From positions 1 through 30,587 of IMG/VR virus record IMGVR_UViG_3300045581_000797: 30,587 bases of DNA. One strand, given 5' to 3'. The position numbers and the translations under genes were made by a program. This DNA comes from a virus. Positions 10,039 through 28,259 of the stretch are shown here, one piece after another. The notes under the pieces were generated by a model. That model was given only the letters and a program-made list of their open reading frames with translations. It made no database searches and was not told where the DNA came from. The stretch's first letter is position 1, and each line of letters begins with the position of its first letter.

Positions 10039-10058
10039 CACGAATCAGAGTGATTTCG

Positions 10059-11390
10059 ATGCCGGCACAGACATTGCGGAGGAGTGGCGACTTCCTGCCC
10101 GGCAAGAATCAGGTGTCCCTCAGGCCCATGCAGGGGCTGATCTTTCAGGACCGGCGGCGCTTCCGGGTCGTGCTGGCGGGGCGGCGGGGCGGGAAGACCG
10201 TGCTCGGGGGCGTGGAGCTGCTGCGCGGGGCCGCTGAGCGCCCAGGGGTCTATTACTACGTCGCGCCGACCTACCGCATGGCGAAAGACATCGCCTGGGA
10301 GACGTACAAGCGTATTTTTCCGGCAGCATGGATACGGAAAAAGAACGAGTCCGAACTAAAGATCGAGCTGATTAACGGGTCGCTTATCTATCTCAAGGGC
10401 TCCGAAGACCCCGACGCACTACGCGGCCCCGCTCTCAACGGCTGTGTGCTTGACGAGTGCGCCTTCCAGCAGCAGTACACATGGGATTCCGTCATCAGCC
10501 CGGCGCTGTCTGACAGGAATGGTTGGGCGCTGTTCACCACCACACCATCGCCGGAAGGTACAGCGGGATGGTTCTATGAGCTTGTATTGCAGCTCACCAG
10601 CGCCGATCTCGCTGATCCAGGGCTTGAGAAGCTCGATCCGCAAGAATGGACGCTGTATGAGTACACGAGCCTGCAAGGCGGGAACATTCCGCCGGCAGAG
10701 ATCGAGCGGGCACGCAGAACACTCGCCCCGGAGGTGTTCGAGCGCGAATATGAGGCCAAGATTCTGTCGAACACGGGCCTTGTGGTGTCATGTTTCTCGA
10801 TGCTCAACATCGATTCGACGGTTGAAGACGACGAAACACTACCTTTGTACGTCGGAATCGACTTTAACAACGATCCCCTGACCGCAATTTGCGCCAATGT
10901 CGTCAGAGAGAACGGAAAACCCAAGGAATTGCGCGTTTTTGGCGAACTTAGCCTGCAAAGAGCGACGACCTGGGACCTTGCTGAGCAGCTTGTCGAGATT
11001 TATGGCCAAAGACGCCGCATTATTGCATGTCCCGACCCTACCGGCAAGCGAAAGCAGACCTCCGGCATCGGTGTGAGCGATCATCAGATCCTGCGCAAGG
11101 CCGGCATCGAGGTCTATGCCCCCGAATCGCCCTACAACACGGCTGATGGGATACGAGCCGTGAACGCAGCACTGCGCACGGCTGACGGGGAGGTGCATAC
11201 GAAGATCAACCCACGTTGCCGTGAGCTTATTAAGTCGTTCCGAACCCTTGGTTACGCCGAGGGGACGCGGATGCCGAATAAGAAACTAGGCGTCGATCAC
11301 TCGTTCGACGCCTTTAAGTATCTGTGCCTAGGTAAGTTTAATCTAGCTAGGGGAGAAAATGGGGTAATAACGTCACATCGAATCTACTAA
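10059..11390 (+). CDS. terL: Terminase large subunit
   Basis: A 443-residue packaging motor ATPase and nuclease. ATPase part: Walker A GRRGGKT at residues 41-47, Walker B CVLDEC at 129-134 with the catalytic Glu, and coupling motif FTTTPS at 159-164. Nuclease part with RNase H fold: YVGIDFNNDP (264-273; Asp268), ACPDPTGKRK (323-332; Asp326) and KLGVDHSFDAFKYL (409-422; Asp413, Asp417). The length is typical. The track-style GTG at 10050 is possible but the ATG at 10059 fits the -10 spacing. It is encoded alone on the plus strand, divergent from portal. No small subunit gene sits beside it, which is uncommon. Confidence 0.95.
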   Translation: MPAQTLRRSGDFLPGKNQVSLRPMQGLIFQDRRRFRVVLAGRRGGKTVLGGVELLRGAAERPGVYYYVAPTYRMAKDIAWETYKRIFPAAWIRKKNESELKIELINGSLIYLKGSEDPDALRGPALNGCVLDECAFQQQYTWDSVISPALSDRNGWALFTTTPSPEGTAGWFYELVLQLTSADLADPGLEKLDPQEWTLYEYTSLQGGNIPPAEIERARRTLAPEVFEREYEAKILSNTGLVVSCFSMLNIDSTVEDDETLPLYVGIDFNNDPLTAICANVVRENGKPKELRVFGELSLQRATTWDLAEQLVEIYGQRRRIIACPDPTGKRKQTSGIGVSDHQILRKAGIEVYAPESPYNTADGIRAVNAALRTADGEVHTKINPRCRELIKSFRTLGYAEGTRMPNKKLGVDHSFDAFKYLCLGKFNLARGENGVITSHRIY

Positions 11391-13146: not shown

Positions 13147-13485
13147 CTATTTGGGCGCGGATTCCTCCCCTTCGCTTCCGTCTACCCTGTCCCGCTCGCG
13201 GGCTGCTTTCCGCGCCAGCTCGTCAGGCGCAAGCTCTTGCCGCTTCAGTTCGATCGCTTCACGCCTGGCCGCCGCGTCTTCCTTGAGTAGCTGGAGAGCT
13301 TCCACTGGCAACATGAGATTGATGCATTCGTCTCGACCAATGGCGGCCACGGCTTGGCATTGGTCGAGACGAATGCCCCGGCTTTCAGCGCAACTGACAG
13401 TGATATCCATTGGCTTGGACCACTCCTGCGCCAACAGCCAGTCGCACGCTTCAGGCGATGGCAGGCAGGGATCGCGCTGCTTGCC
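13147..13485 (-). CDS. Unknown protein with internal perfect inverted repeat
   Basis: A 112-residue protein starting MGKQRDPCLPSPEACDWLLA. I do not recognise a family. The N-terminal part has two Cys and Trp residues. Residues 30-55 contain RLDQCQAV and IGRDEC, encoded by the two arms of a 19-bp perfect inverted repeat. Residues 65-100 form a charged helix (LKEDAAARREAIELKRQELA) and the C-terminus is acidic. I chose the ATG at 13485, not the extension to 13512, because a strong -10 (TATACT, 13519-13514) is only 28 bp before it. It converges with the RTX-like gene. Confidence 0.6.
   Translation of the reverse strand, partial: GKQRDPCLPSPEACDWLLAQEWSKPMDITVSCAESRGIRLDQCQAVAAIGRDECINLMLPVEALQLLKEDAAARREAIELKRQELAPDELARKAARERDRVDGSEGEESAPK
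13324..13376. repeat. 19-bp perfect inverted repeat, 15-nt spacer, inside a gene
   Basis: Left arm GCATTCGTCTCGACCAATG (13324-13342) and right arm CATTGGTCGAGACGAATGC (13358-13376) are exact reverse complements. The spacer is 13343-13357. The hairpin would be very stable in RNA of either strand. There is no T-run next to it, so it is not a normal terminator. Confidence 0.9.
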
Positions 13486-14376: not shown

Positions 14377-14504
14377 GGGAGGGGTAAGGGCACCCCCTCC
14401 CCCCACGTCAAAACTGCAACCCTACCCCGGTTCACATAAGGAAGCGAGGCAGGATTGCGTGGGGGACTGTATAGGCGCGGGAGCTTAACAGTTTGTAAGG
14501 TGGC

Positions 14505-14777
14505 TCAGTCTTCCGGCCACTCGAAACCATCCGGCACAAGCCACACATCCTGATCTTGATACAGAGTCTCGCCATCCTCTGATTTGTAGTTATTTAGCAC
14601 GCTCTCCCACGCCTCCCAATACAATTCATTATCGGTGTTCTCCAGTGCCGCAGCGTAGTCTAGGAGGATACCACAGCGCATACAATCCGCACCGGTAAGA
14701 TATCGTGTCGCAAATATCTGTGGAATGTAGATTCCGAAGTGTCCATCGATGATAAGGACGGGCTCAGTCTGTGCCAT
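14505..14777 (-). CDS. Conserved-looking phage protein of unknown function
   Basis: A 90-residue acidic protein starting MAQTEPVLIIDGHFGIYIPQ. The pattern LIIDGHFGIYIPQIFATRY, then NDELYWEAWESVLNNY and ETLYQDQDVWLVPDGFEW, is one I associate with small proteins of unknown function in phages and plasmids. The Trp/Tyr-rich acidic second half might mimic nucleic acid, but this is speculation. It is the last gene of the minus-strand early array, 34 bp after its upstream neighbour. No Shine-Dalgarno sequence is seen. Confidence 0.7.
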   Translation of the reverse strand: MAQTEPVLIIDGHFGIYIPQIFATRYLTGADCMRCGILLDYAAALENTDNELYWEAWESVLNNYKSEDGETLYQDQDVWLVPDGFEWPED

Positions 14778-14810
14778 GATAGAAAAGGGGATTGTGGGAT
14801 AAGGCGGGAG

Positions 14811-15173
14811 TCAGACGTAGCAAGTATTGCGCTCGACAATATCACCCCAAGAGGAGACACGGTAGCGCTTTCGGCTGTGATCGTAGACTATTGTTGGCGT
14901 ATAGGTCTCGCCTGTATTCAGGTACTCCAGACCATGGACTTCGTGGAAGGTATCATCTTTGTGCGCAATATACTCTACTCCACACGTTTCCGCGATAGAG
15001 TCGAGAACATGTAGTCTAAGGTCGTAAGTCTCGGGCGGATTGTGACAGGCTGAGAGTCTGGCCGCACCGGCAGGATGCTCTGACAACTGTGAGCGGTTCA
15101 TCTCCAGAACCTTGCGCAGTTCCTTGCCATGGCCAGGGAAGGCAGAATCTAGAGTCTTGACTGACGGGAGCAT
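14811..15173 (-). CDS. Unknown protein, early array
   Basis: A 120-residue protein starting MLPSVKTLDSAFPGHGKELR. N-terminal helix KELRKVLEMNRSQLSEHPAG; the C-terminal half (HEVHGLEYLNTGETYTPTIV, then RYRVSSWGDIVERN) resembles a small domain I have seen in unnamed phage and plasmid proteins with the phrase LNTGdTY...SWGD-VE. Function unknown. A promoter-like TAGTCT (minus strand, 15216-15211) lies 38 bp before the ATG. Gene order next to the two other small conserved-type genes suggests a co-inherited accessory cassette. Confidence 0.68.
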   Translation of the reverse strand: MLPSVKTLDSAFPGHGKELRKVLEMNRSQLSEHPAGAARLSACHNPPETYDLRLHVLDSIAETCGVEYIAHKDDTFHEVHGLEYLNTGETYTPTIVYDHSRKRYRVSSWGDIVERNTCYV

Positions 15174-15208
15174 GGGGAGAGAGGCGATGGGGACAAGGTG
15201 AGAGAGGA

Positions 15209-15454
15209 TCAGACTAGCCTGGCCTCGCCAGACGGCAGCATCTTATAATGTGTTCTCTTGTGCCCGTGCTTCTCCTCTAGGTTGTTGTAGATACGGCAAG
15301 CATTCTCAGTGGTTGGGCCATCGGAGCACATTCCGGGAGAGAAGTAGCGGCCGATTCTGCACAGTCGAGAATAAAGGTCGGAAAACTGTCCGCCGTGATA
15401 GTGTGTGGCGAACCAGTAATGGGCCTCCACAATGTCGAAACGATCAAACCACAT
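15209..15454 (-). CDS. Unknown small aromatic-rich protein, early array
   Basis: An 81-residue protein starting MWFDRFDIVEAHYWFATHYH, continuing GGQFSDLYSRLCRIGRYFSP. The DIVEAHYWFATHYHGGQ phrase, rich in His, Trp and Tyr, is found in small proteins of unknown function from phages and plasmids, as far as I recall. No catalytic signature is certain. The leader before the ATG (minus strand, about 15490-15455) has ACGTGC and CATTGT 20-25 bp before the start, a weak relative of the repeated leader element described below. Confidence 0.65.
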   Translation of the reverse strand: MWFDRFDIVEAHYWFATHYHGGQFSDLYSRLCRIGRYFSPGMCSDGPTTENACRIYNNLEEKHGHKRTHYKMLPSGEARLV

Positions 15455-15493: not shown

Positions 15494-15769
15494 TTAGCGG
15501 ACGTGCCAAGGGTGGAAAATATAAACTCCTTCATCATTGCAGGAAAGGGCGCCCTTGACCGTTTTGCCTCCGATGCTTGCCTGTGCAGGCAAGGCGAAAG
15601 CGTGCAAAGGTTCGCCCGTTACTCTAGCGGCGCGGCGCTCTGTGGTGCCGCTGATAATGGCACCCTTAACGTTTGACAGGGTCGGGCCGCCGATCCAGTC
15701 ACAGTAGCCTAGTTGCTGATCCGGGTCCGCTGGGTTGGTTTCGTAGCGGTCAATGCGATAAAGGGGCAC
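15494..15769 (-). CDS. Unknown small protein, early array
   Basis: A 91-residue protein starting at GTG (MPLYRIDRYETNPADPDQQL). It contains GYCDWIGGPTLSNVKGAIIS and ends EGVYIFHPWHVR. I do not recognise a family. The GTG start is supported by AAAGAGG 6 bp upstream and by lying 84 bp from the beginning of leader element copy C, the same distance as in the neighbouring genes. Alternating charged and hydrophobic residues suggest a small beta-rich fold. Confidence 0.62.
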   Translation of the reverse strand: MPLYRIDRYETNPADPDQQLGYCDWIGGPTLSNVKGAIISGTTERRAARVTGEPLHAFALPAQASIGGKTVKGALSCNDEGVYIFHPWHVR

Positions 15770-15852
15770 GGGAAACCTCTTTGTGTGGTTTGCTCCCCCA
15801 CAATACCAACAAATGGCACGATGGGGGAATGGACGCGCAATATATTGTCACA
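15770..15852 (-). promoter_or_regulatory. Repeated leader element, copy C
   Basis: Minus strand: TGTGAC box at 15852-15847, then CATTCCCCCATCGTGCCATT, then a TATTGTGGG box whose hexamer TATTGT is at 15805-15800, and the GTG start 31 bp further on. The TGTGAC box contains the TGA stop of the upstream gene. Shares blocks and spacing with copies A and B. Confidence 0.65.
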
Positions 15853-16330
15853 CTACGGGGGCTGGCTTTTTCCCCCAGTAGGCTCCCGCGAAGTGTGCGG
15901 CGCCAGGGTGGAATTCTGGATAAAAGCGTCGGACGTAGCAGACTCCAGCGTGAGCGTGACAATTCGCCAATGGATTGCGCTTAGGGTCTACGATTAGCTG
16001 ATCAGCATTTGTGCCCTTGAATGGCGCAACGTAGCAGCTGCGAAAGTAGCCAAGAACATGGCAAATCCAGTCTTGAATGGCGGAATCGGAGATTGCCGGT
16101 TTTTCCTTTTCCCACTGGTTGAGCAGCCGGCGGGCTGAATGGCGAGCTTCGCGGTCGAGCCATTCGCAACTCGCAGCGGATGATAGGCTCATGCTGGCGC
16201 GATTCTCTTTTCTGAGGTGCAGATCAGTTTCAACCGAAAAAGTGTGTTCAGGGTGGCCGGGAGGATTAAGGAATCCCCCCATGCCATACGATACGATGCG
16301 GCCTTTTTCTCTAGTGACGGTTGCGGTCAT
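15848..16330 (-). CDS. Unknown protein, early array
   Basis: A 160-residue protein starting MTATVTREKGRIVSYGMGGF. Middle part is helical and charged (LDREARHSARRLLNQWEKEK), then IQDWICHVLGYFRSCYVAPF and a Cys/His-containing stretch NCHAHAGVCYVRRFYPEFHP that could bind a metal. I do not recognise a family. I chose the ATG at 16330 over a GTG at 16360. The GTG lies inside the TATTGTGGG box of leader element copy A, and CCCATTCATG before the chosen ATG matches the neighbouring gene. Confidence 0.62.
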   Translation of the reverse strand: MTATVTREKGRIVSYGMGGFLNPPGHPEHTFSVETDLHLRKENRASMSLSSAASCEWLDREARHSARRLLNQWEKEKPAISDSAIQDWICHVLGYFRSCYVAPFKGTNADQLIVDPKRNPLANCHAHAGVCYVRRFYPEFHPGAAHFAGAYWGKKPAPVV

Positions 16331-16411
16331 GAATGGGAGTGGAGTGATGGACTTGCCCACAATAGGGCATGAATGACACGGCGGGGAATGTGCGCGTTAC
16401 ATACTGTCACA
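16331..16411 (-). promoter_or_regulatory. Repeated leader element, copy A
   Basis: Minus strand: TGTGACAGTATGT at 16411-16399, CGTGTCATTCATG, TATTGTGGG with TATTGT at 16364-16359, then CCCATTCATG at the start codon. The TGA of the upstream gene lies within the TGTGAC box. TATTGT as -10 would place the transcription start about 22 bp before the ATG. Confidence 0.7.
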
Positions 16412-16598
16412 TATCAAGGAGCGGAGACTTCGACAGTTTTTCGCCAGCCTCCACGCGGCGGCATAGTTCCCCCAGGTCCAGAATTGTCTGCAAGCCGATC
16501 GGAAGCGCTACCTGAGCGTCTGCCGTAAGTATCAACATAGCAGCATCATAAAGTGCGGCTCTTGCCTTCTCTGGTGACGCGAAGCTGAAACCGGCCAT
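16407..16598 (-). CDS. Unknown small helical protein, early array
   Basis: A 63-residue protein starting MAGFSFASPEKARAALYDAA, then MLILTADAQVALPIGLQTIL and LGELCRRVEAGEKLSKSPLL. It looks all-helical. I do not recognise a family. The longer frame to 16655 would include leader element copy B, so I chose the ATG at 16598. The stop codon lies in the TGTGAC box of copy A, so this gene and the next are separated by the element alone. Confidence 0.58.
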   Translation of the reverse strand: MAGFSFASPEKARAALYDAAMLILTADAQVALPIGLQTILDLGELCRRVEAGEKLSKSPLLDM

Positions 16599-16678
16599 GA
16601 ATGGGCTCCGATGAATGCCCTCCCACAATACGCCATGAATGGCACGCTTGCCCATTGTGCCCTTAACATACAGTCACA
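16599..16678 (-). promoter_or_regulatory. Repeated leader element, copy B
   Basis: Minus strand: TGTGACTGTATGTTAAGGGC at 16678-16659, CGTGCCATTCATGG, TATTGTGGGAGG with TATTGT at 16630-16625, and CCCATTCATG at the start. Best preserved with copy A: box order, spacing and the last 10 bases before the start agree. B also matches the shortened copy E ahead of the primase. Confidence 0.7.
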
Positions 16679-16797
16679 GTCTCACTGACCCGTCCTGCCC
16701 TGTCTCACTGAGACTCACTGCGCCGCAACGGGTCTTACTGAGACTCGCTGTCTGTCTCACCCTCCGTCTCACTGCCTGTCTCGCCTGTCTCGCTTGA
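16677..16797. repeat. Cluster of GTCTC/GAGAC repeats
   Basis: About ten copies of GTCTC or GAGAC in 120 bp, several as GTCTCACTG, including the palindrome GTCTCACTGAGAC (16710-16722). It covers the last 20 codons of the 16735 gene, where it encodes the SETGETGSETEGETDSES tail, and continues 50 bp past its stop. Looks like slippage of a short unit. Confidence 0.6.
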
Positions 16798-17391
16798 ATG
16801 CGACAGCTCCGGGATCGGGTTCTCAATCGAGACCACCAGCCGCAGATCCTCCTCGCCCAAGCCAGCGCTCTCCCGCAGCTCCCCAGCGATCTCCCCAGCC
16901 CGATCAAGGCCCCTCAGGGCAGCGCTCCACTCACCATCCGCCAGAGCCCCCTGAATGGCCCTCTGGCGGGTCGCAGCCACCATCGCCCTGCGCAGCTCAG
17001 GCGGGGCCGTCTCGGCGGCGCACAAAGCCTTCTCTGCGGCCCGTTGAATGCGAGCCCGCTCCTTGGCCGGCAGGTGGGCGGCCTGTTGCGCCAGGCGCCA
17101 GCTCACTTGGACCGGCAGCAGGCCAGAGGCGTACCAGTTGAAGACTGCTTCGAGCAGGCCGTTGAATGCTGCTTCCTCCTCCTGCTGGGCCGTGGCATCC
17201 CAGCTCACGCGCCAAGTCCCGTGTGTCCGCAGGAGCCTCTCCGAGTCCGGCATGTGATGGACAGGGGCGGGCTGTCTGTAGCTGAGGCCCTTGGCCGGCT
17301 TGATGTTCACGTCTGGCCTGTTTGGTCCCTGAATAATACGCGGGGCGGCCGATTCCTCTGTTCCCGCTTCTTTGGCCGGCAGGAAAGGCAC
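16735..17391 (-). CDS. Unknown helical protein, possible small terminase
   Basis: A 218-residue protein with helical core: WRVSWDATAQQEEEAAFNGL (about 60-80), VQVSWRLAQQAAHLPAKERA, then LADGEWSAALRGLDRAGEIA and LGEEDLRLVVSIENPIPELS. The last 20 residues are acidic repeats. The arrangement of helices followed by a short strand and acidic tail recalls terminase small subunits, and no other candidate exists in the window. But it lies 5 kb from the large subunit, so this is a guess. The frame has no ATG before residue 47; GTG at 17391 is the only upstream start after an in-frame TAG. ATG at 17253 is the alternative. Confidence 0.5.
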   Translation of the reverse strand: MPFLPAKEAGTEESAAPRIIQGPNRPDVNIKPAKGLSYRQPAPVHHMPDSERLLRTHGTWRVSWDATAQQEEEAAFNGLLEAVFNWYASGLLPVQVSWRLAQQAAHLPAKERARIQRAAEKALCAAETAPPELRRAMVAATRQRAIQGALADGEWSAALRGLDRAGEIAGELRESAGLGEEDLRLVVSIENPIPELSHSSETGETGSETEGETDSESQ

Positions 17392-18490: not shown

Positions 18491-19120
18491 TTAGTTGGCA
18501 AGCTCACCATCTTCAGTGAACAGATACTCGTTAGCCCTGACAGACTCCAATACCTGTTCCTCGCTTGTCTGATAGTCGTACTCACGCTCCAACATGCTGA
18601 AATAGTCTTGCAGGAGAGCTTTCCTGAAGTCTTCCTCGATGTCTTCGTATTCTTCGAGATTGTCAAAATTATTCAGCCAGTCACTAGGGGAATAGTCCTC
18701 GTGATCTTCAGGACAAGTCTCAAGTTCGCAAGCACGCCAAGCCTCAAGCGCCCTGGCGTACCCCTTCAGATACTGCCGGGCTGTCTTGAACGTGTCACAC
18801 TCCTTGCCGTGATGCTTGCGGATCAGTGCACAGCAGTCGCGCAGAGTCTCCGTCAGTCTGCCGGTGATATTCTTTCTGCTGCCAAGATCGAAGCCGGTGA
18901 TCTGTAGTCCGATAGTAGCAGCATCCTCATAAATATGCTCCCACCAGTCGTAGTCAACGTTAAGATCGTAAAGCCGCTCAAGAGCCTTCTCGCGTGCGCC
19001 GTCATTTAACTCGTCGATCGTATAAAGCGTGCGCTCAACAGTTTCCCTCTCCTTCATGCCGGCAGGGAGGGGGATGCCATCGGCGTGATTAAGCGTGGTG
19101 ATAGTTTGATGGATAGGCAT
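18491..19120 (-). CDS. Acidic protein of unknown function, widespread phage type
   Basis: A 209-residue, strongly acidic protein starting MPIHQTITTLNHADGIPLPA. The phrases TIDELNDGAREKALERL, DWWEHIYEDAATIGLQITGF and LRDCCALIRKHHGKECDTFK recur in unnamed proteins of many phages and plasmids, as I recall. The C-terminal 70 residues are rich in Glu, Asp and Tyr (EEYEDIEEDFRKALLQDYFS). Such DNA-like charge fits an anti-restriction or DNA-mimic role, which remains speculation. The start is uncertain: GTG at 19171 lies inside leader element copy D; ATG at 19120 is my choice; MKERETVERTLYTIDE further in is possible. Confidence 0.65.
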   Translation of the reverse strand: MPIHQTITTLNHADGIPLPAGMKERETVERTLYTIDELNDGAREKALERLYDLNVDYDWWEHIYEDAATIGLQITGFDLGSRKNITGRLTETLRDCCALIRKHHGKECDTFKTARQYLKGYARALEAWRACELETCPEDHEDYSPSDWLNNFDNLEEYEDIEEDFRKALLQDYFSMLEREYDYQTSEEQVLESVRANEYLFTEDGELAN

Positions 19121-19165
19121 TGTGTGACCCGGCTTGCTGCCGGTCGTTTCAACAATGCCAATATA

Positions 19166-19223
19166 CAGCACAAAGGGGCCAACGTGCCACGCCAGCCCCT
19201 GATACGCTTAACAGACTGTCACA
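19166..19223 (-). promoter_or_regulatory. Repeated leader element, diverged copy D
   Basis: Minus strand: TGTGACAGTCTGTTAAGCG at 19223-19205, then GGCGTGGCACGTTGG and TTTGTG in place of TATTGT. The TGA stop of the upstream gene again lies within TGTGAC. The start is about 20 bp farther than in copies A-C. Confidence 0.5.
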
Positions 19224-19488
19224 GAGAGGAGTCGTTGATAAACTGCTCGAATGTGAGGGGGGAGCGTGGCGTAGTATCCCGCATCGCCCAGACAAACGTA
19301 CCATCCTTGAACCTGGCGTAGTTTGATCTGTCGTGCTCCTCATCAGCGGGGGCAGCGGTGCGAGTAGTACGTTTCATCCACCACCGCTTCTTGTAGTAGA
19401 ATACCTGCCCCTTTAGCAACGACCTGAATCGAGTGCGTTTGGCATGAATGTGTTTAAGCTTTGTTTCGGGTTGAATGAGGAGAGGCAT
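19219..19488 (-). CDS. Small basic protein of unknown function
   Basis: An 89-residue protein starting MPLLIQPETKLKHIHAKRTR. Basic N-terminal half (FRSLLKGQVFYYKKRWWMKR) then NYARFKDGTFVWAMRDTTPR. FRSLLKGQVFYY...YARF-DGTF reads like a small beta-barrel in which a start such as F-DLKVGQxFxx is common in phage proteins; function unknown. The ATG overlaps the previous stop by 1 base, with GGGGAGGGGAA upstream as ribosome binding site, so the longer frame to 19545 is not needed. Confidence 0.7.
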   Translation of the reverse strand: MPLLIQPETKLKHIHAKRTRFRSLLKGQVFYYKKRWWMKRTTRTAAPADEEHDRSNYARFKDGTFVWAMRDTTPRSPLTFEQFINDSSL

Positions 19489-19655
19489 CAGTTCCCCTCC
19501 CCTTGAATGAGCTGTAGTAGCACCGTGCGCAGTTGCTGCCTGCATTCCGCCCAGCCAAGAAGGTATGCCATGTGAATGGCGTTGCTTGGGGGCTGGCGCA
19601 GGGGGGCCTGTTCGGGAATGACAGCGAGGATGAATGCGCGTTCTGCGGGGGTCAT
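19488..19655 (-). CDS. Small unknown protein between HNH and the next gene
   Basis: A 55-residue protein starting MTPAERAFILAVIPEQAPLR and ending RTVLLQLIQGEGN. Contains MAYLLGWAECRQQLRTVLLQ, a probable helix. Its ATG overlaps the stop of the HNH gene by 4 bp (ATGA) and its own stop overlaps the next ATG by 1 base. That double coupling is the main evidence that it is real. No family recognised. Confidence 0.7.
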   Translation of the reverse strand: MTPAERAFILAVIPEQAPLRQPPSNAIHMAYLLGWAECRQQLRTVLLQLIQGEGN

Positions 19656-20188
19656 GCCACCCCCTCCCCTTCCCCCTGCCGGCCCTGGGAGGCGTGCAGA
19701 GCGGCGTAGGCGCGGCGTGCGGCGAGGGCTTCGGCCCTGGACTCGAAGGAGCTGATGAGCGTTTGCTGCGTGGCCCCAGGGTGGCGGTAGAACGCGTCCC
19801 AGAGCCCCGTCAGGCGGTTGTAGCGGATCTGTGTCCGATGCCAGTAGACGCGGCGACAGCGGGCCCCGGGGCGCGGCTGCGGACGGGTGAAGGGTTCAGA
19901 GGTGAGGGTGAGGTTGGACAGGCGCAGATCGAGCGGGTTGCCGTTGACGGGGGAGACGTGCAGCGGGGTGGGGTCAGCGTCGTACTGCAATGCCCAGACG
20001 ACTGCTGCGGCTCTGTATCTCACGCCGGCAATGAGCACATACCATCGCCCCTTCTGCACATACCCCGCCGGCGCCCCGGCTGCACGAGACCCACGCTGCT
20101 GCGCATAGGTGAGCGCCCCCGTGAGCGGGTCGTAGTTGAATAGGTGGCGGAATGTGTGGAGCGGTGGGAGGGGGGAGGCGTCGGTCAT
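19652..20188 (-). CDS. HNH endonuclease-like protein, catalytic site degenerate
   Basis: A 178-residue basic protein. Residues 14-30 (LFNYDPLTGALTYAQQR) and 55-100 (AGVRYRAAAVVWALQYDADP, then VNGNPLDLRLSNLTL) follow the phage HNH pattern in which hR.aW.l..G..P is followed by iDHinGd..DnR.sNL. The usual DH catalytic pair is replaced by SP (HVSPVNGNPLDLRL), so nuclease activity is doubtful. The C-terminal part (ARCRRVYWHRTQIRYNRLTG) resembles an AP2-like DNA-binding module as in homing endonucleases. It overlaps the upstream membrane-protein gene by 4 bp, so it is embedded in the operon rather than free-standing. Confidence 0.7.
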   Translation of the reverse strand: MTDASPLPPLHTFRHLFNYDPLTGALTYAQQRGSRAAGAPAGYVQKGRWYVLIAGVRYRAAAVVWALQYDADPTPLHVSPVNGNPLDLRLSNLTLTSEPFTRPQPRPGARCRRVYWHRTQIRYNRLTGLWDAFYRHPGATQQTLISSFESRAEALAARRAYAALHASQGRQGEGEGVA

Positions 20189-21083: not shown

Positions 21084-21749
21084 TCAGACCTCGATGAGAC
21101 GCTCAAGCATCCCGATCACATCAAGCCCATCCGAGTCATCCCATACCCCATCCTCCCAGTCAGCGTCGACACAGTATGTGGTGTATGTAGCGGCATTGGC
21201 GATAGCGTTAAGCGTCAAAGGAAAGAGAAGGGGGGCCATGCCAAGACTCCACTGTACTAGCGCAACCTTTTTAAGGGATTTCAGGTTGACATCAATGTTA
21301 GCACCTTCGAGATACATAAGTGTTTCAACGCACTCGGGAGACAGCTCCTTCATGCCTCTAAGGGTTTTCCCCCATGCCTCTCTCGTGTCTGCCGGCCATT
21401 CATCAGTGGAAATACGCGGCAAAACCCGCTCCCACATCCAGTCAGCCAGCAGATTAAACCGCGCTTCCTCCTTTTCCCTGTCTCGCCCCGTGCCGGCAGC
21501 AAGGGGCAATAGCTCTTTCCACTGCCGGCAATTCCGTGTTCCGTGTGGCATCAGGTCTTGCACGGCAATGACCCACTTGCCGATAACCAGGCTCATGCAG
21601 TCGGGAATCTCGTCAGTCAACTCCCCGCTGAGCGCAATGTTGATTGCTGCAATGCTACAAGGCATGGAAGGACCGCCAAGGCCCTCGCCCAACTCGACGC
21701 AACTGAGTAGATCCGTGATGTCCTTGGACTGTTCTGCGGTAAGCGCCAT
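21084..21749 (-). CDS. Conserved-looking protein of unknown function
   Basis: A 221-residue protein starting MALTAEQSKDITDLLSCVEL. The part CSIAAINIALSGELTDEIPD, then CMSLVIGKWVIAVQDLMP and NCRQWKELLPLAAGTGRD, matches a pattern I associate with unnamed phage and actinobacterial proteins (AI-IALTGELTD-IPDCMS). The second half is helical, with YLEGANIDVNLKSLKKVALV, and the acidic C-terminus has DADWEDGVWDDSDG. Function unknown. It lies 70 bp downstream of the helicase gene. GTGs and ATG near 21749 agree on the start; no strong ribosome binding site is seen. Confidence 0.68.
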   Translation of the reverse strand: MALTAEQSKDITDLLSCVELGEGLGGPSMPCSIAAINIALSGELTDEIPDCMSLVIGKWVIAVQDLMPHGTRNCRQWKELLPLAAGTGRDREKEEARFNLLADWMWERVLPRISTDEWPADTREAWGKTLRGMKELSPECVETLMYLEGANIDVNLKSLKKVALVQWSLGMAPLLFPLTLNAIANAATYTTYCVDADWEDGVWDDSDGLDVIGMLERLIEV

Positions 21750-21819
21750 GGGTTCGTGGCTTGTTGAACACCGCTATCGTAGCCCCTAATGCGACGCTGC
21801 GCCATGGTACCCGCAACAT

Positions 21820-23259
21820 TTAGTAACGCACCCCCGCCGCCACGGCATCGCAGTATCGGTACGGCAGGCCCAGGGCACGCTCGATGCGGCGTTTCTGGTT
21901 GTCGTCAAGCCCCTCAGGGTTGTGCGCGTATGGCATCAGGATAGAAGGGGTAAAGTTCTTTTTCTCCACAAGGTACAGATTGCGCTTGGCACCCTTGATA
22001 CGCTTAGCAATTTCCTGGCCATGCACCTCATCGAGCGACAGCTTTCTCAACTCCCGCCCATTGCCACGCACCACCATCTGTCGCGCCTCTGCCGGCGCCT
22101 CCTTGACTCGACCATCTTCCGTTGCCGGCGCCTCCTTGACTCGACCATCTTCCGTTACCTCTAGGTTGCCAATGTCAACCTTAACCTTGCCCTCCAATGT
22201 CCAGTCAATCGGTTTATGAGGCAGTGGTAGCTTCTCCCAGCAGTTACCGTGATCGATGATGAGGGCTACTTTGTCCGGGTTGTTGTTGTCGATGCGCAAT
22301 ACGCGCCCGATCAGTTGCTTCCAGAGACGTAGGCTGCGGGTGGGGCGAACAAGCTGTAAACACGTTGCTGCCGGCAGATCAAGCCCCTCGTCGATCAGGG
22401 CGACCGAGACAATGACTTTCAGACTGCCGGCAGTGAAGCGAGCGAAAGCATCCTCGCGCTGCCGTTCAGGCGTGTCACCGATGATAACCTCGGCACTGAT
22501 CCCGCGAGCGTTGTATTCCTCTGCAAGCTGATGGGCATGGTTAATGCTAACCGTGACCGTGATTGTGGGTTCTAGCTTGGGGTTGAAGCGCAATAGATCG
22601 CGCACGAAGTCCCCATCAACCTCAAGAATCCGCTCCTCAAGGTCCTTCTGACTGAAGTCCCCGCCTACAGACTTAACCCCTTTCGTGTCAACAACGGCAT
22701 CGGCTACAAATATGTCGTATTTGCACAGCGATCCCTCGTCCATTAACTGCTTGGGCTGAGGGCCTAGAATGAGCTTTGTGATGCCATACTTGCCAAGTCC
22801 CGCACCCGTGGGGGTGATTGGGGTAGCAGAAAGCCCGATAAAGAACGCGGGCTGCATTTCACGAATGATCTCTTGATACGTCCGTGCTTGTATATGATGC
22901 GCCTCGTCAAGCAGTAGAACTCTACCGCGAAACGTCCTGATAGCTGACTTTCGCCGCGCCAGGGTGGGCATCATGGTGACCATAATGCCACGATCCTGAG
23001 TAGTGCGCTTGGCCGTGAAGTAGCCTACGGGTTCTCCGCAATGCTTCTGGCACGACGCTGCAAGCTGTTTGATAATTTCGTTGCGGTGCGCGGCGCAGAC
23101 GACCTCATACCCCCACTCCCTGAACTGCCGGACCATTTCCGCCCCCATGACCGTTTTACCGCTCCCGGTGGGGCTCACCAGGCATGGTGCGCCCCCTTTG
23201 ACAGCGTGCTCGATCGTCTCGCGCACAAGTTGAGATTGATAGTCTCGGAGCTTAAACAT
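21820..23259 (-). CDS. SF2 DEAH-box DNA helicase
   Basis: A 479-residue helicase starting MFKLRDYQSQLVRETIEHAV. Motif I SPTGSGKT (29-36), motif II DEAH (118-121), motif III LSATP (143-147), and motif VI QLIGRVLRID in the second RecA-like domain. The DxxQ/YQ start and overall length resemble RecG/UvsW/RadD-like phage helicases used in replication restart and recombination. A perfect 33-bp tandem repeat adds an 11-residue repeat (TEDGRVKEAPA twice) between core and C-terminus. I chose the ATG at 23259, which overlaps the upstream stop, rather than the longer frame to 23310. It shares an operon with RusA. Confidence 0.9.
   Translation of the reverse strand: MFKLRDYQSQLVRETIEHAVKGGAPCLVSPTGSGKTVMGAEMVRQFREWGYEVVCAAHRNEIIKQLAASCQKHCGEPVGYFTAKRTTQDRGIMVTMMPTLARRKSAIRTFRGRVLLLDEAHHIQARTYQEIIREMQPAFFIGLSATPITPTGAGLGKYGITKLILGPQPKQLMDEGSLCKYDIFVADAVVDTKGVKSVGGDFSQKDLEERILEVDGDFVRDLLRFNPKLEPTITVTVSINHAHQLAEEYNARGISAEVIIGDTPERQREDAFARFTAGSLKVIVSVALIDEGLDLPAATCLQLVRPTRSLRLWKQLIGRVLRIDNNNPDKVALIIDHGNCWEKLPLPHKPIDWTLEGKVKVDIGNLEVTEDGRVKEAPATEDGRVKEAPAEARQMVVRGNGRELRKLSLDEVHGQEIAKRIKGAKRNLYLVEKKNFTPSILMPYAHNPEGLDDNQKRRIERALGLPYRYCDAVAAGVRY
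22091..22156 (-). repeat. Perfect 33-bp tandem repeat in the helicase gene
   Basis: Two identical 33-bp units (22091-22123 and 22124-22156), each beginning with GCCGGCGCC on the plus strand. They keep the frame and encode two copies of TEDGRVKEAPA in a linker. Identity at every base suggests a recent duplication. Confidence 0.9.
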
Positions 23260-25684: not shown

Positions 25685-25735
25685 TGTGACAGTTTAATAA
25701 ACTGGCACACTTGCGCTGATGTGCCATAGTGGGAG
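25685..25735 (+). promoter_or_regulatory. Leader element copy E with operator-like palindrome
   Basis: Plus strand: TGTGACAGTTTAA at 25685, GGCACA, then GTGCCATAGTGGGAG at 25721-25735. It resembles copy B but lacks about 11 bases including the TATTGT box. Inside it, GTG-A-CAGTTTA-A-TAAACTG-G-CAC (25686-25708) is a near-perfect 23-bp palindrome, 34 bp from the divergent start at 25652. CATAGT (25726-25731) could be a -10 for the primase operon. Confidence 0.5.
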
Positions 25736-25754: not shown

Positions 25755-25792
25755 CAAGAAAAAGGGCCAGGCGTTACCACACGCCTGGCCCT
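25755..25792 (-). terminator. Minus-oriented terminator in front of the primase operon
   Basis: Perfect 13-bp arms AAGGGCCAGGCGT and ACGCCTGGCCCTT around TACCAC (25762-25793), followed on the minus strand by TTTTTCTT. It faces the early operon. It would stop transcripts arriving from the right before they reach the operon, or act as an attenuator for a promoter at about 25,800. As a leader hairpin on the plus strand it has no T-run. Confidence 0.75.
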
Positions 25793-25823
25793 TAACGAAT
25801 CATTCCACCGACAACTTTAACAC

Positions 25824-28259
25824 ATGGACCGATGGATACCATCCTCGCGGAACAATCCATGCCCGATCTGCGGTCGCACCAAGGACGGTGACTGCCGGGT
25901 GAAGGCCGATGGCCAGATGGTGTTCTGTCACAGGGGTAAGACCCTGGGCCCCCCGGAGCGGGTGCGCGTCGGAGAGGTGCTGACCGATCTGGAGGGCCGG
26001 CAGTGGGCCTATGCTGGGGAGCGCGACGGCAGCAGGGATGGGGCGTTATTCGTGATCCATCAGGCTGTCCCCGACCTGCCCCCCTGCTGGCCGCCGCCGG
26101 CCTCGACGCCCGAGCCGGCAACGCGGGACGGGATCGGCTGCAAGGCTACGACATATCAATATACAGAAAATCTGCGGGTCATTCGCTATGACTTCGAGGG
26201 CAAGAAAAAGCAGTTTCTACCTCAGCACTGCATCAATGGCGAATGGGTAGCAGGAGCGGGATCGGAGATATGGCCGTTCTATGGAGCCCTTCCCCATGAT
26301 GCGACAAAGTTTGTCATTGAAGTGGAGGGAGAGAAGTGCGTTGATATACTGCGGTCTTTAGGGATCGCGGCTATCACACACCCAGGACACCAGCGCGACG
26401 AGAATAGTTGCAGGGCTAGATATGCTGGGCTGCTGAGCGCCAAGATTGATAAAGTCTACTTCATATCTGACAACGACGTACCCGGCAGGAAGAAGGGCGC
26501 AGGGTTTGCTGTTGCCGGCAAGCTGGCGGGAGTCGAGGTCTGCGTCATCCCAGCAGAGACGATCTGCGACGTTCCCGATGGTGGGAGCGTTGACGACATC
26601 CCAAGGGAGCAGTTGGGCGAACTTATCGCCAAGGCGCTCAAGACATATTCATCGTCGAAGATCGCACCGCTCAACCGCACAAGCTACGCCTCAATCAAGA
26701 AGGCACTACAGGACTTCCTTGATTCATCCCCAAGTTCTGCTGCTGATATTCAGACTGGGATCTCGGACATTGCATCAGCGCATGATGTTTCTGTTTTCGA
26801 TGTCTCCAGGATCTGGGACTCACTGCAAGAAGACAAGCAGATCGAGGCGGAGGCCCTCAGCGCCACCGCTGCTGTCATTCGCCGGCAGGAACTGGAGGAG
26901 AGGAGGGCGGCTGTCGAGCTGCGCGACTACCTGCCGGAGGCGATCTGCGGAGCGATCGAGACGCTCTCGGGCAACCTGGCCTGTGATTCGCTGACCTCCA
27001 TCGCTGTGGCCCTGACCACCGCTGCCGGCGTGTTTCGTGCGGGGCATCGCATCGATGCAGGGGATGGGCTGTTTGTGAAACAGCCTGTCGTGTGGGTACT
27101 GCTTGCCGGCCCCTCGGGCAGTGGCAAGTCACCGATCATGCAACACCTGTGCCGTGATCGCCTGAGGCTTGTAGTCAATCACTACAATCAGCTCAGTATG
27201 GATTCTGAGTTGGAATGGGAAATGCGGTATGGCATGGTCCCTAAGAACCAGCGGCCGGAGAAACCCGAGGCTTTGCGCACTTGCGTTACCGACTTCACGA
27301 CAGAAAGCCTGAACGGCATTATAACGGACAATCACGACAGAGGACTTGCTACGTTCATCTACTCAGAGGAGATCAAGGAGATTCTGGGCAACTTTGACGA
27401 GTACAAGGCAAACGGAAAGGGCAGAGGTAAGGAGGCGTTTTTGTGCTTGTTTGACGGCAACGTGAACGCGCAACACCGCGTGGGACGTAGATCGAGGATG
27501 GTGACCGGCAAGGTGCAGAATGCACTACTCGGCGGTGTTCAGCCGGGAGTGTTTCGCAAGATGGTGGAGCACGGGGACGATGCCGGTCTGTTTGCACGCT
27601 GCTTGATACTGCCGCTGATCGGTGAGTACGTCGAGCCCAACTTCTTCCGCACGCCGGAGGAGATTCAGTCAGTACACATGGCTGAGCAGTGCATGGAAAA
27701 CTTTTATTTGCGCTGCATGAGCGTTGATCCGCTCGTGCTACGCCTTGAGAGAGAGGCGATTGATCTGTTTCTGGCGCTGCACAAGGACACCTACAACAAG
27801 ACTCATTCCGTCGCACTCGAGTCTCAACGTGCGGTGTACGGCAAGCGCCTGGGCTATGTATTGCAGGTAGCGTTGACGATGCACCTGTGCAGTGTTGCTG
27901 CCGGCGAGACTCCCATCGATGAACTGTACGTCTCAAAGGGAACACTTGCGCGAGCTGTTAAGTTTGTGGATCTGTTGCAGGCGTATGCGATTGTCGAGCA
28001 GCAGGAGTCGCAGATGCAACGACATGGATCGTTCGACCTGAACAGGCGTATTCACATCTACGCGAAGACCAACAACGGCTGTACTGTGGCAGACTTTGCA
28101 AATACCTGTGTCCCGATCAGGTATCGCAAAGAGATCAGGGCTACACACATTAAGGCGGCCATGGATCAGCTTGTCAGCATGAGGCTAGGGGAGTGGCGCG
28201 ATAGCAAGGTGGGGGCTAAGAGCTTAACTTTTGTGGCCCTTGACAAGTTCCCTGACTAA
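25824..28259 (+). CDS. Primase-helicase (CHC2 zinc finger, TOPRIM-like, DUF3987)
   Basis: An 811-residue replication protein starting MDRWIPSSRNNPCPICGRTK. Zinc finger with Cys13, Cys16, Cys24 and Cys35 (CPICGRTKDGDC ... FCHRG). TOPRIM-like segment: FVIEVEGEKCVDIL (about 160-175) with its Glu, and ISDNDVPGRKKG (about 211-222) with the DxD-type acids. C-terminal half belongs to the DUF3987 group, with Walker A LAGPSGSGKSPI (about 425-436) and later YSEEIKEILGNF. It would synthesise primers and unwind DNA at the phage fork. No Shine-Dalgarno sequence; the ATG at 25824 is the first possible. It opens the plus-strand operon at the right end. Confidence 0.88.
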   Translation: MDRWIPSSRNNPCPICGRTKDGDCRVKADGQMVFCHRGKTLGPPERVRVGEVLTDLEGRQWAYAGERDGSRDGALFVIHQAVPDLPPCWPPPASTPEPATRDGIGCKATTYQYTENLRVIRYDFEGKKKQFLPQHCINGEWVAGAGSEIWPFYGALPHDATKFVIEVEGEKCVDILRSLGIAAITHPGHQRDENSCRARYAGLLSAKIDKVYFISDNDVPGRKKGAGFAVAGKLAGVEVCVIPAETICDVPDGGSVDDIPREQLGELIAKALKTYSSSKIAPLNRTSYASIKKALQDFLDSSPSSAADIQTGISDIASAHDVSVFDVSRIWDSLQEDKQIEAEALSATAAVIRRQELEERRAAVELRDYLPEAICGAIETLSGNLACDSLTSIAVALTTAAGVFRAGHRIDAGDGLFVKQPVVWVLLAGPSGSGKSPIMQHLCRDRLRLVVNHYNQLSMDSELEWEMRYGMVPKNQRPEKPEALRTCVTDFTTESLNGIITDNHDRGLATFIYSEEIKEILGNFDEYKANGKGRGKEAFLCLFDGNVNAQHRVGRRSRMVTGKVQNALLGGVQPGVFRKMVEHGDDAGLFARCLILPLIGEYVEPNFFRTPEEIQSVHMAEQCMENFYLRCMSVDPLVLRLEREAIDLFLALHKDTYNKTHSVALESQRAVYGKRLGYVLQVALTMHLCSVAAGETPIDELYVSKGTLARAVKFVDLLQAYAIVEQQESQMQRHGSFDLNRRIHIYAKTNNGCTVADFANTCVPIRYRKEIRATHIKAAMDQLVSMRLGEWRDSKVGAKSLTFVALDKFPD

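Follow-up and report, generated by a model that had tools for sequence, protein, structure and literature searches.

The window spans a complete IMG/VR record (30,587 bp), and its genes (portal, capsid, terminase, and helicases) are siphovirus-like. It contains six copies of an intergenic element, all on the minus strand (box starts at 21828, 19223, 16678, 16411, 15852, and 14500). Sequence comparison makes it likely, in our assessment, that this element is a punctuation module comprising a translation stop, a hairpin, and a promoter, which doubles as a homology seam for gene shuffling; it would thus act as a composite signal between small accessory genes. The copies and their spacing, the stops in three frames, the excess of hairpins, and the gain and loss of cassettes with junctions inside elements can be read directly from the letters, to which this interpretation adds predicted promoter and terminator activities, a putative bound regulator, and a recombinase. 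Phage genomes are mosaics whose module joints can seldom be seen, and how modules are exchanged is debated; here, the joints bear a conserved and recognizable element, gain and loss can be followed at base level in near-identical relatives, and both ends of transcripts can be predicted from the element. Together, these features make module exchange directly testable. The element also offers an easy way to recognize accessory arrays in this uncultured phage group, in which most cassette genes have no known function.

Element Copies in the Window

The initial annotation had described a leader of about 80 bp before separate genes, with copies designated A, B, and C, a diverged copy D, and a shortened copy before the primase gene. 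The repeat is real but larger than that description: the copies at 21828 and 14500 had been missed, and neither the hairpin/terminator component nor the presence of a copy at the array end had been recognized. Copies A, B, and C carry the three words originally proposed in the same order, as read directly, with the start codon 83, 81, and 80 nt from the first box base, respectively. Element C (16599–16678, minus strand; box 16661–16678; −10-like TATTGT 16625–16630) is the first of the accessory array and precedes the ATG (16596–16598) of a small gene of 63 aa (16407–16598); it follows a gene in the terS position (16735–17391; homologs in 34 relative sequences), the stop codon of which lies 59 nt before the element. 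Next come element B (16331–16411, minus strand; box 16394–16411; −10-like TATTGT 16359–16364; start ATG 16328–16330) and element A (15770–15852, minus strand; box 15835–15852; −10-like TATTGT 15800–15805; start GTG 15767–15769). Copy D (19121–19223, minus strand; box 19206–19223; −10-like TATATT 19160–19165; start ATG 19118–19120) is a true copy with longer spacing, its start codon being at 103 nt, and belongs to a long-spacer class. The first of the two additional copies (21750–21828, minus strand; box 21811–21828; −10-like TACGAT 21776–21781; start ATG 21747–21749) precedes a 221-aa ORF (21084–21749). The second (14410–14507, minus strand; box 14483–14500) lies at the array end, with a TGA at 14505–14507 and a terminator-like hairpin (GCAATCCTGCC..GGTAGGGTTGC with TTTT, 14410–14458), and has no gene or promoter behind it.

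With a box profile trained on 163 elements, all from contigs other than the window, the six minus-strand boxes were the six top-scoring sites in the window (29.2 bits at 14500, 20.7 at 19223, 18.4 at 21828, 17.4 at 16678, 13.5 at 15852, and 8.1 at 16411). The best scores in 200 Markov shuffles of the window had a mean of 6.9, a 95th percentile of 12.7, and a maximum of 17.1; thus, the four best boxes exceed all 200 shuffles and A (13.5) exceeds the 95th percentile. The B box (8.1 bits) lies below that percentile, and B is recognized by its full anatomy (stop at +2, TATTGT at offset 47, start at 81), not by box score. The single words CGTGYCATT and TATTGTGGG (one mismatch allowed) are not enriched in the window; the evidence for the repeat lies in word order, spacing, and recurrence in relatives.

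The cassette gene behind element A (15494–15769, minus strand) has homologs in eight relatives, all eight of which have an upstream element of their own, not always of the same type. The three small genes that follow it (14505–15454, minus strand; 81, 120, and 90 aa; gaps of 33–39 nt) have no element, and homologs of the 81-aa and 120-aa genes have their own in some relatives. Since some array genes, including these three, lack an element, not every gene depends on having the module.

Occurrence in Related Contigs

Related loci were collected by terminase (72 loci) and primase (14 loci) searches; these relatives are metagenomic contigs, mostly incomplete, of which 13 were read whole, and ORFs were called by simple ORF rules. 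Further copies in relatives, on which the initial annotation had staked its claim, are plentiful: 118 box matches above 14 bits occur in 14 contigs, compared with 5.3 in Markov controls. The pooled relatives contain 184 unique box matches, roughly ten or more of which are profile matches without an element; some matches lacking a −10, such as G005 +24711, which falls in a conserved stretch of the opposite strand, were rejected as elements. After deduplication, 152 elements have a −10 at a fixed place. An expectation-maximization (EM) motif search ended in a mixture of motifs, and fixed-offset counting was used instead. When two long patterns were compared with 2.9 million viral contigs, matches were almost entirely confined to this clade; the matches listed from a 14-mer pattern scan of viral contigs are probably mostly due to chance. 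Megablast found no match among named phages for 21.6 kb of window sequence, and Rfam 15 gave nothing above the gathering score in the window and three relative loci.

Promoter-Like Part

The −10-like motif TAnnnT lies at offset 47 from the box start in 91 of the 184 matches, at offset 46 in 23, and at offset 57 in 24, compared with about 1.7 expected per offset, and the 46–47 spacing could in part reflect common descent of the copies. In the offset-47 class the flanking positions G45 (88%) and G59 (95%) are conserved. No −35 motif was found in the short class (offsets 46–47) in aligned columns from offset 28 on, nor by eye in the columns before them; in the offset-47 class the columns just before offset 31 lack conservation. 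Certain long-class copies have −35-like sequences by eye (TTGCAC or TTGGCA). In cyanobacteria, promoters of the TAnnnT type that lack a −35 are well known.

An ORF start lies behind 141 of the 152 deduplicated −10 elements, and if RNA synthesis is assumed to begin 11 nt after the first −10 base, the predicted leader is 20–23 nt long in 102 of these 141. The suggestion in the initial annotation that the repeat is a start-associated promoter module thus gains sequence support from the fixed box-to-TAnnnT distance and from this predicted leader. We infer that the element carries a promoter: the TAnnnT motif, at its fixed distance from the box, would start a transcript 20–23 nt before the next start codon, and most array genes would thereby have their own transcript. 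An activator or repressor probably contacts the box itself, given that the spacings of 46–47 and about 57 lie one helical turn apart and that the short class has no −35. No regulator or sigma factor was recognized among 37 conserved or array proteins. The small basic protein encoded just upstream of element D (19219–19545) belongs to an unknown family and has homologs in 13 relatives; by position and conservation only, it is a candidate box-binding protein.

Stop Codons in the Box

The box is ~18 nt long, with the consensus TGTKACWAAnTGTTAAGC. Among the 142 elements preceded by an ORF of at least 50 aa, the stop codon of that ORF falls at −10 to +13 of the box in 105, mostly at discrete positions: the TGA of TGTGAC (+2), the TAA of CTAA (+6), the TAA of GTTAAGC (+13), and the TGA of TGAGCCA (−7). 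These stops are distributed over the three frames (40/36/29), and as the discrete positions fall in all of them, TGTGACTAAnTGTTAAGC holds stops in all three frames in many copies. Judging from these positions, the box supplies the stop codon of the upstream gene in any frame, and would end its translation whatever frame arrives. In the window, the stop of the upstream gene lies in the boxes of B (TGA 16407–16409) and A (TGA 15848–15850), D has a TGA at 19219–19221, and the helicase gene ends in the 21828 box (TAA 21820–21822), all on the minus strand. It had been proposed that the stop lies inside TGTGAC in A, C, and D; this holds for A and D, and also for B, but not for C, where only a shadow ORF of 77 aa stops there. 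Elements without a stop in the box mostly follow the gene that precedes the array (stop at −46 to −65), and element C belongs to these.

Hairpin Part

Between the box and the −10, or around the −10, the elements fold more strongly than shuffled sequence, with mean folding z values of −3.05 in class 46 (n = 20), −1.96 in class 47 (n = 86), and −2.33 in class 57 (n = 24), compared with −0.09 in 300 random windows (p about 1e-25 for the excess). In class 46, positions 21 and 40 form a Watson–Crick pair in 70% of copies compared with 36% expected from composition. The hairpin sequences vary while pairing is kept, with some covarying pairs in class-46 and class-57 copies. In class 47, 36 of 86 copies have z below −2, about half of the short class is no stronger than shuffled sequence, and no clear signal of one shared hairpin register was found across class-47 copies, the registers of which differ. 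Within the window, element A has a hairpin around the −10 (TTCCCCCA..TGGGGGAG, z −5.3), element D has GGGGCTGGCGTGGCACGTTGGCCCC followed by TTT, and the hairpins of B and C are weak.

A stem followed by a T-run is present in 17 of the 32 copies of classes 57/58 (e.g., AGCCGGACCTAGCAAGTCCGGCTTTTTT) and, despite the hairpin excess, in none of the 106 copies of classes 46/47, which means that termination is well supported for the long class only. In about half of long-class copies the hairpin is predicted to be a canonical intrinsic terminator; the short-class hairpin, which has no T-run, might serve, for example, in 3′-end protection or weak termination. Located after the box, the hairpin would end or insulate the upstream transcript.

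We regard it as unlikely that only a regulated promoter (an operator plus −10) has been duplicated, with stops and hairpins incidental and exchange amounting to ordinary recombination between repeats. The box-to-(−10) spacing is the tightest constraint on the element, a significant hairpin is missing from about half of the short class, and some array genes have no element, all of which would fit a duplicated promoter. Against it stand the upstream stops, which occupy particular places in the box and use every frame (the 105 of 142 above), a strong excess of hairpins that differ in sequence and in classes 46 and 57 include covarying pairs, the textbook terminators in 17 of 32 long-class copies, and the one box that stands at an array end without a promoter.

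Cassette Gain, Loss, and Exchange

Nucleotide alignments between relatives end inside elements in 277 of 469 cases compared with 89 expected, a figure that is raised by the faster divergence of intergenic DNA relative to genes. Clean insertions (>150 nt) are less exposed to this effect, but form a small sample: 12 of the 22 inside arrays are bounded by two different elements, compared with 0.88 expected (P 7e-12), and several of the 12 may represent one event seen in different pairs. The near-identical contigs L071 and L037 (98.5–99.9% identity) differ by a 384-bp cassette (one element plus a gene) that is missing from L037, in which the single remaining element is a hybrid, its left side matching the upstream L071 element and its right side the downstream one. 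Two cassettes present in G009 are absent from L043, where the switch falls within the box or beside it. The overlap at junctions varies from 10 to 90 nt and tracks the similarity of the two elements, as expected of homologous rather than site-specific exchange.

The variable overlap also argues against the box being a site-specific recombination site analogous to integron attC, with arrays moved by a recombinase. This is highly improbable for further reasons: TGTTAAGC fits the core GTTRRRY in 118 of 167 cases, but there is no RYYYAAC partner at a conserved place (7/167 upstream, 49/167 downstream), and no integrase was recognized among the array and conserved proteins scanned. Consistent with such a site are the boxes that bound cassettes and end arrays, the adjacent hairpin, and the junctions that in some cases fall in the box itself.

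In the punctuation module that we favor, homologous recombination between diverged copies in the same orientation would remove, add, or replace cassettes precisely. At the helicase locus an element is present in nearly all contigs, and the gene behind it comes from at least seven families. The earlier idea that the repeat spreads with its gene is only part of the picture: gene and element are gained and lost as a unit, but elements are also swapped between unrelated genes. The window A gene has 80% protein identity to its G005 ortholog, and their elements differ in type (59% identity). For the window C element, identity is 87% with G002_46181, an element that precedes an unrelated gene (by way of close F4 relatives), compared with 78% with the elements of orthologs of its own gene. 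On these comparisons, element and gene are separable.

Among the relatives, G009 has genes for an Erf-like annealing protein, an exonuclease, and a RuvC-like resolvase, homologs of which occur in 7–9 other contigs, and RusA is encoded in the window. Erf is usually placed within the wider Rad52-like group of phage recombinases. A link between recombinases of that group and the recombination of diverged sequences has been reported (PMC3945230). The Erf-like protein and the exonuclease of the phage probably carry out the cassette exchange. An HNH endonuclease (phrog_99) is encoded in the window (19652–20188) and in L112 (8591–9091), and beside arrays in 11 of the other contigs; it could promote exchange by cutting.

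Comparison With Known Elements

The closest functional match is the PeSL of T4-like myoviruses, a composite promoter–terminator motif that mediates modular shuffling (Arbiol et al., 2010; Comeau et al.; cited in PMC4503421). Both are intergenic composites present in many copies among small non-essential genes that are shuffled by recombination between copies. PeSLs unite a promoter and a stem-loop terminator; the present elements have a −10-like site at a fixed place (152 deduplicated copies) and a hairpin that forms a stem plus T-run in 17 of 32 copies of classes 57/58 and in none of the 106 of classes 46/47. Shuffling or deletion of neighboring genes through recombination between copies is matched here by the two-element insertions and the hybrid junction elements. 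The present element is set apart from PeSLs: PeSLs have a strong sigma70-like early promoter with −35 and −10, whereas the main class here has no conserved −35; the genomes are not of the T4 myovirus type, but have siphovirus-like genes, those for head and terminase showing a distant relationship to cyanophage S-2L; and the 18-nt all-frame stop box at a fixed distance from the −10, the hairpin variants without a T-run, and the 20–23-nt leader are further differences. More tentatively, and with rather more doubt than confidence, we propose that one element of ~80 nt forms a complete cassette joint that unites the all-frame translation stop, the end or insulation of a transcript, a new transcript controlled through an activator box, and the recombination seam. 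If so, any small gene inserted between two copies would at once be properly expressed, and the element, its promoter being regulator-controlled and helically phased, would have evolved independently as a counterpart of PeSLs, found clade-wide in freshwater-type phages (“freshwater” being based on kinship with S-2L and on a reading of the sample numbers of the contigs).

The precedent suggested in the initial annotation, the start-associated sequences (SAS) of mycobacteriophages, was a fair lead, but their consensus is absent and PeSLs are closer in function. In cluster K mycobacteriophages, SAS/ESAS are repeats located immediately upstream of the starts of many small genes; SAS itself spans 13 nt at the start codon, and an inverted repeat is added in ESAS (Pope et al., 2011; PMC3203893). 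The likeness is in position only, both being mostly one-way repeats before the starts of partly unrelated small genes; unlike SAS, the box lies ~80 nt upstream, holds the stop of the preceding gene, and is part of an element often exchanged between genes. The SAS consensus GGGATAGGAGCCC (up to two mismatches) has one match in the window, with two mismatches (0.9 expected), and six matches in 14 contigs compared with five for the reversed control.

Cluster A stoperators occur in large numbers as short asymmetric sites that share one orientation and lie close to gene ends. The boxes share these properties, and one of them stands without a promoter at an array end; there is also a superficial likeness between TGTTAAG and TGTCAAG. 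A repressor bound to one-way copies could then block transcription of the accessory region in the repressed state, but we attach very little probability to this, since the sites are tied to a −10 and a hairpin at a fixed distance, and the tight box-to-(−10) spacing is not expected of stoperators. The 13-bp stoperator consensus GGTGGMTGTCAAG shows no clear excess in the window (three matches, with two mismatches, compared with 1.6 expected, and none at an element); across 14 contigs it has 28 matches compared with 11 for the reversed pattern. No repressor was recognized among the 37 conserved or array proteins, and no such prophage was found in the bacterial and archaeal genomes searched. The literature, as far as could be found, contains no report of an element like the punctuation module for this phage group.

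Kinship With Cyanophage S-2L

The terminase, portal, capsid, and major tail proteins have S-2L homologs with 32–44% identity, and PHROG and tblastn matches likewise include S-2L-like portal, terminase, capsid, and tail genes. In two S-2L (MW334946) copies, situated 92 and 103 nt ahead of annotated genes, box, hairpin, and −10 follow one another as they do here. Most S-2L copies differ in having no box, a −35-like TTGCGC, and an extended TGCTTTAAT; promoter-like repeats precede about five other small genes. On the minus strand of S-2L (L241, 2063–7271), several small genes are preceded by copies of a promoter-like repeat (attgcgcgg..ccgtgctttaatagg; attgcgcgg..gccgtgctttaatagg) accompanied by local hairpins, and two of them also have the box; a brief literature search found no description of these small-gene repeats. 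This kinship with S-2L hints at a cyanobacterial host but is no proof of one; a terminase search of bacterial and archaeal genomes found neither host nor prophage. A link to the 2-aminoadenine (Z) genome of S-2L was rejected, there being no DatZ, MazZ, or PurZ homolog in these contigs by tblastn.

Site Upstream of the Primase Gene

The supposed shortened copy at 25685, on the other strand, is not an element: it has no score with the independent profile, and its sequence is a palindrome, TGTGACAGTTTAATAAACTGGCACA, in the primase promoter region. This operator-like site (25685–25709) is followed by GTGCCATAGT and lies upstream of the primase/helicase gene (25824–28259). In relatives, TGTGACAGTTTAATAAACTGGCACA is partly conserved upstream of the primase gene; the L086 version, TGTGCCAGTTGCACAAACTGGCACA, is symmetric except at the center, and several other relatives keep recognizable palindrome halves, while others do not. 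Nearly all relatives keep GCCATAAT or GCCATAGT after the palindrome. In the window (25685–25735) and the corresponding upstream regions of L074–L087, the arrangement is a palindrome, TGTGNCAGTT..AACTGNCACA, plus GCCATA(A/G)T, kept in several relatives. The palindrome and the motif after it look like the operator and −10 of a primase promoter. The half-site TGTGACAG is common to the palindrome and the B and D boxes of the window, and a common protein could possibly bind all of them. The primase leader also has a strong hairpin with an A-run on its 5′ side (25767–25799; AGGGCCAGGCGTTACCACACGCCTGGCCCT), present at the same place in the relatives read, which may be an intrinsic terminator for leftward transcripts on the other strand, or an attenuator.

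Other Features of the Window

Clustered GAGACT/GTCTCA repeats lie between the gene in the terS position and the first array element (16680–16790), and are partly kept in G009 (TTGCGGCGCA with GTCTCA-like words); this cluster is possibly a packaging site. The helicase gene contains an exact 33-bp tandem duplication (22090–22155), and a perfect 19-bp inverted repeat with a 15-nt loop is present at 13324–13376. The large terminase gene (10050–11390) is on the plus strand, in contrast to its portal, capsid, and tail neighbors, which occupy the minus strand.
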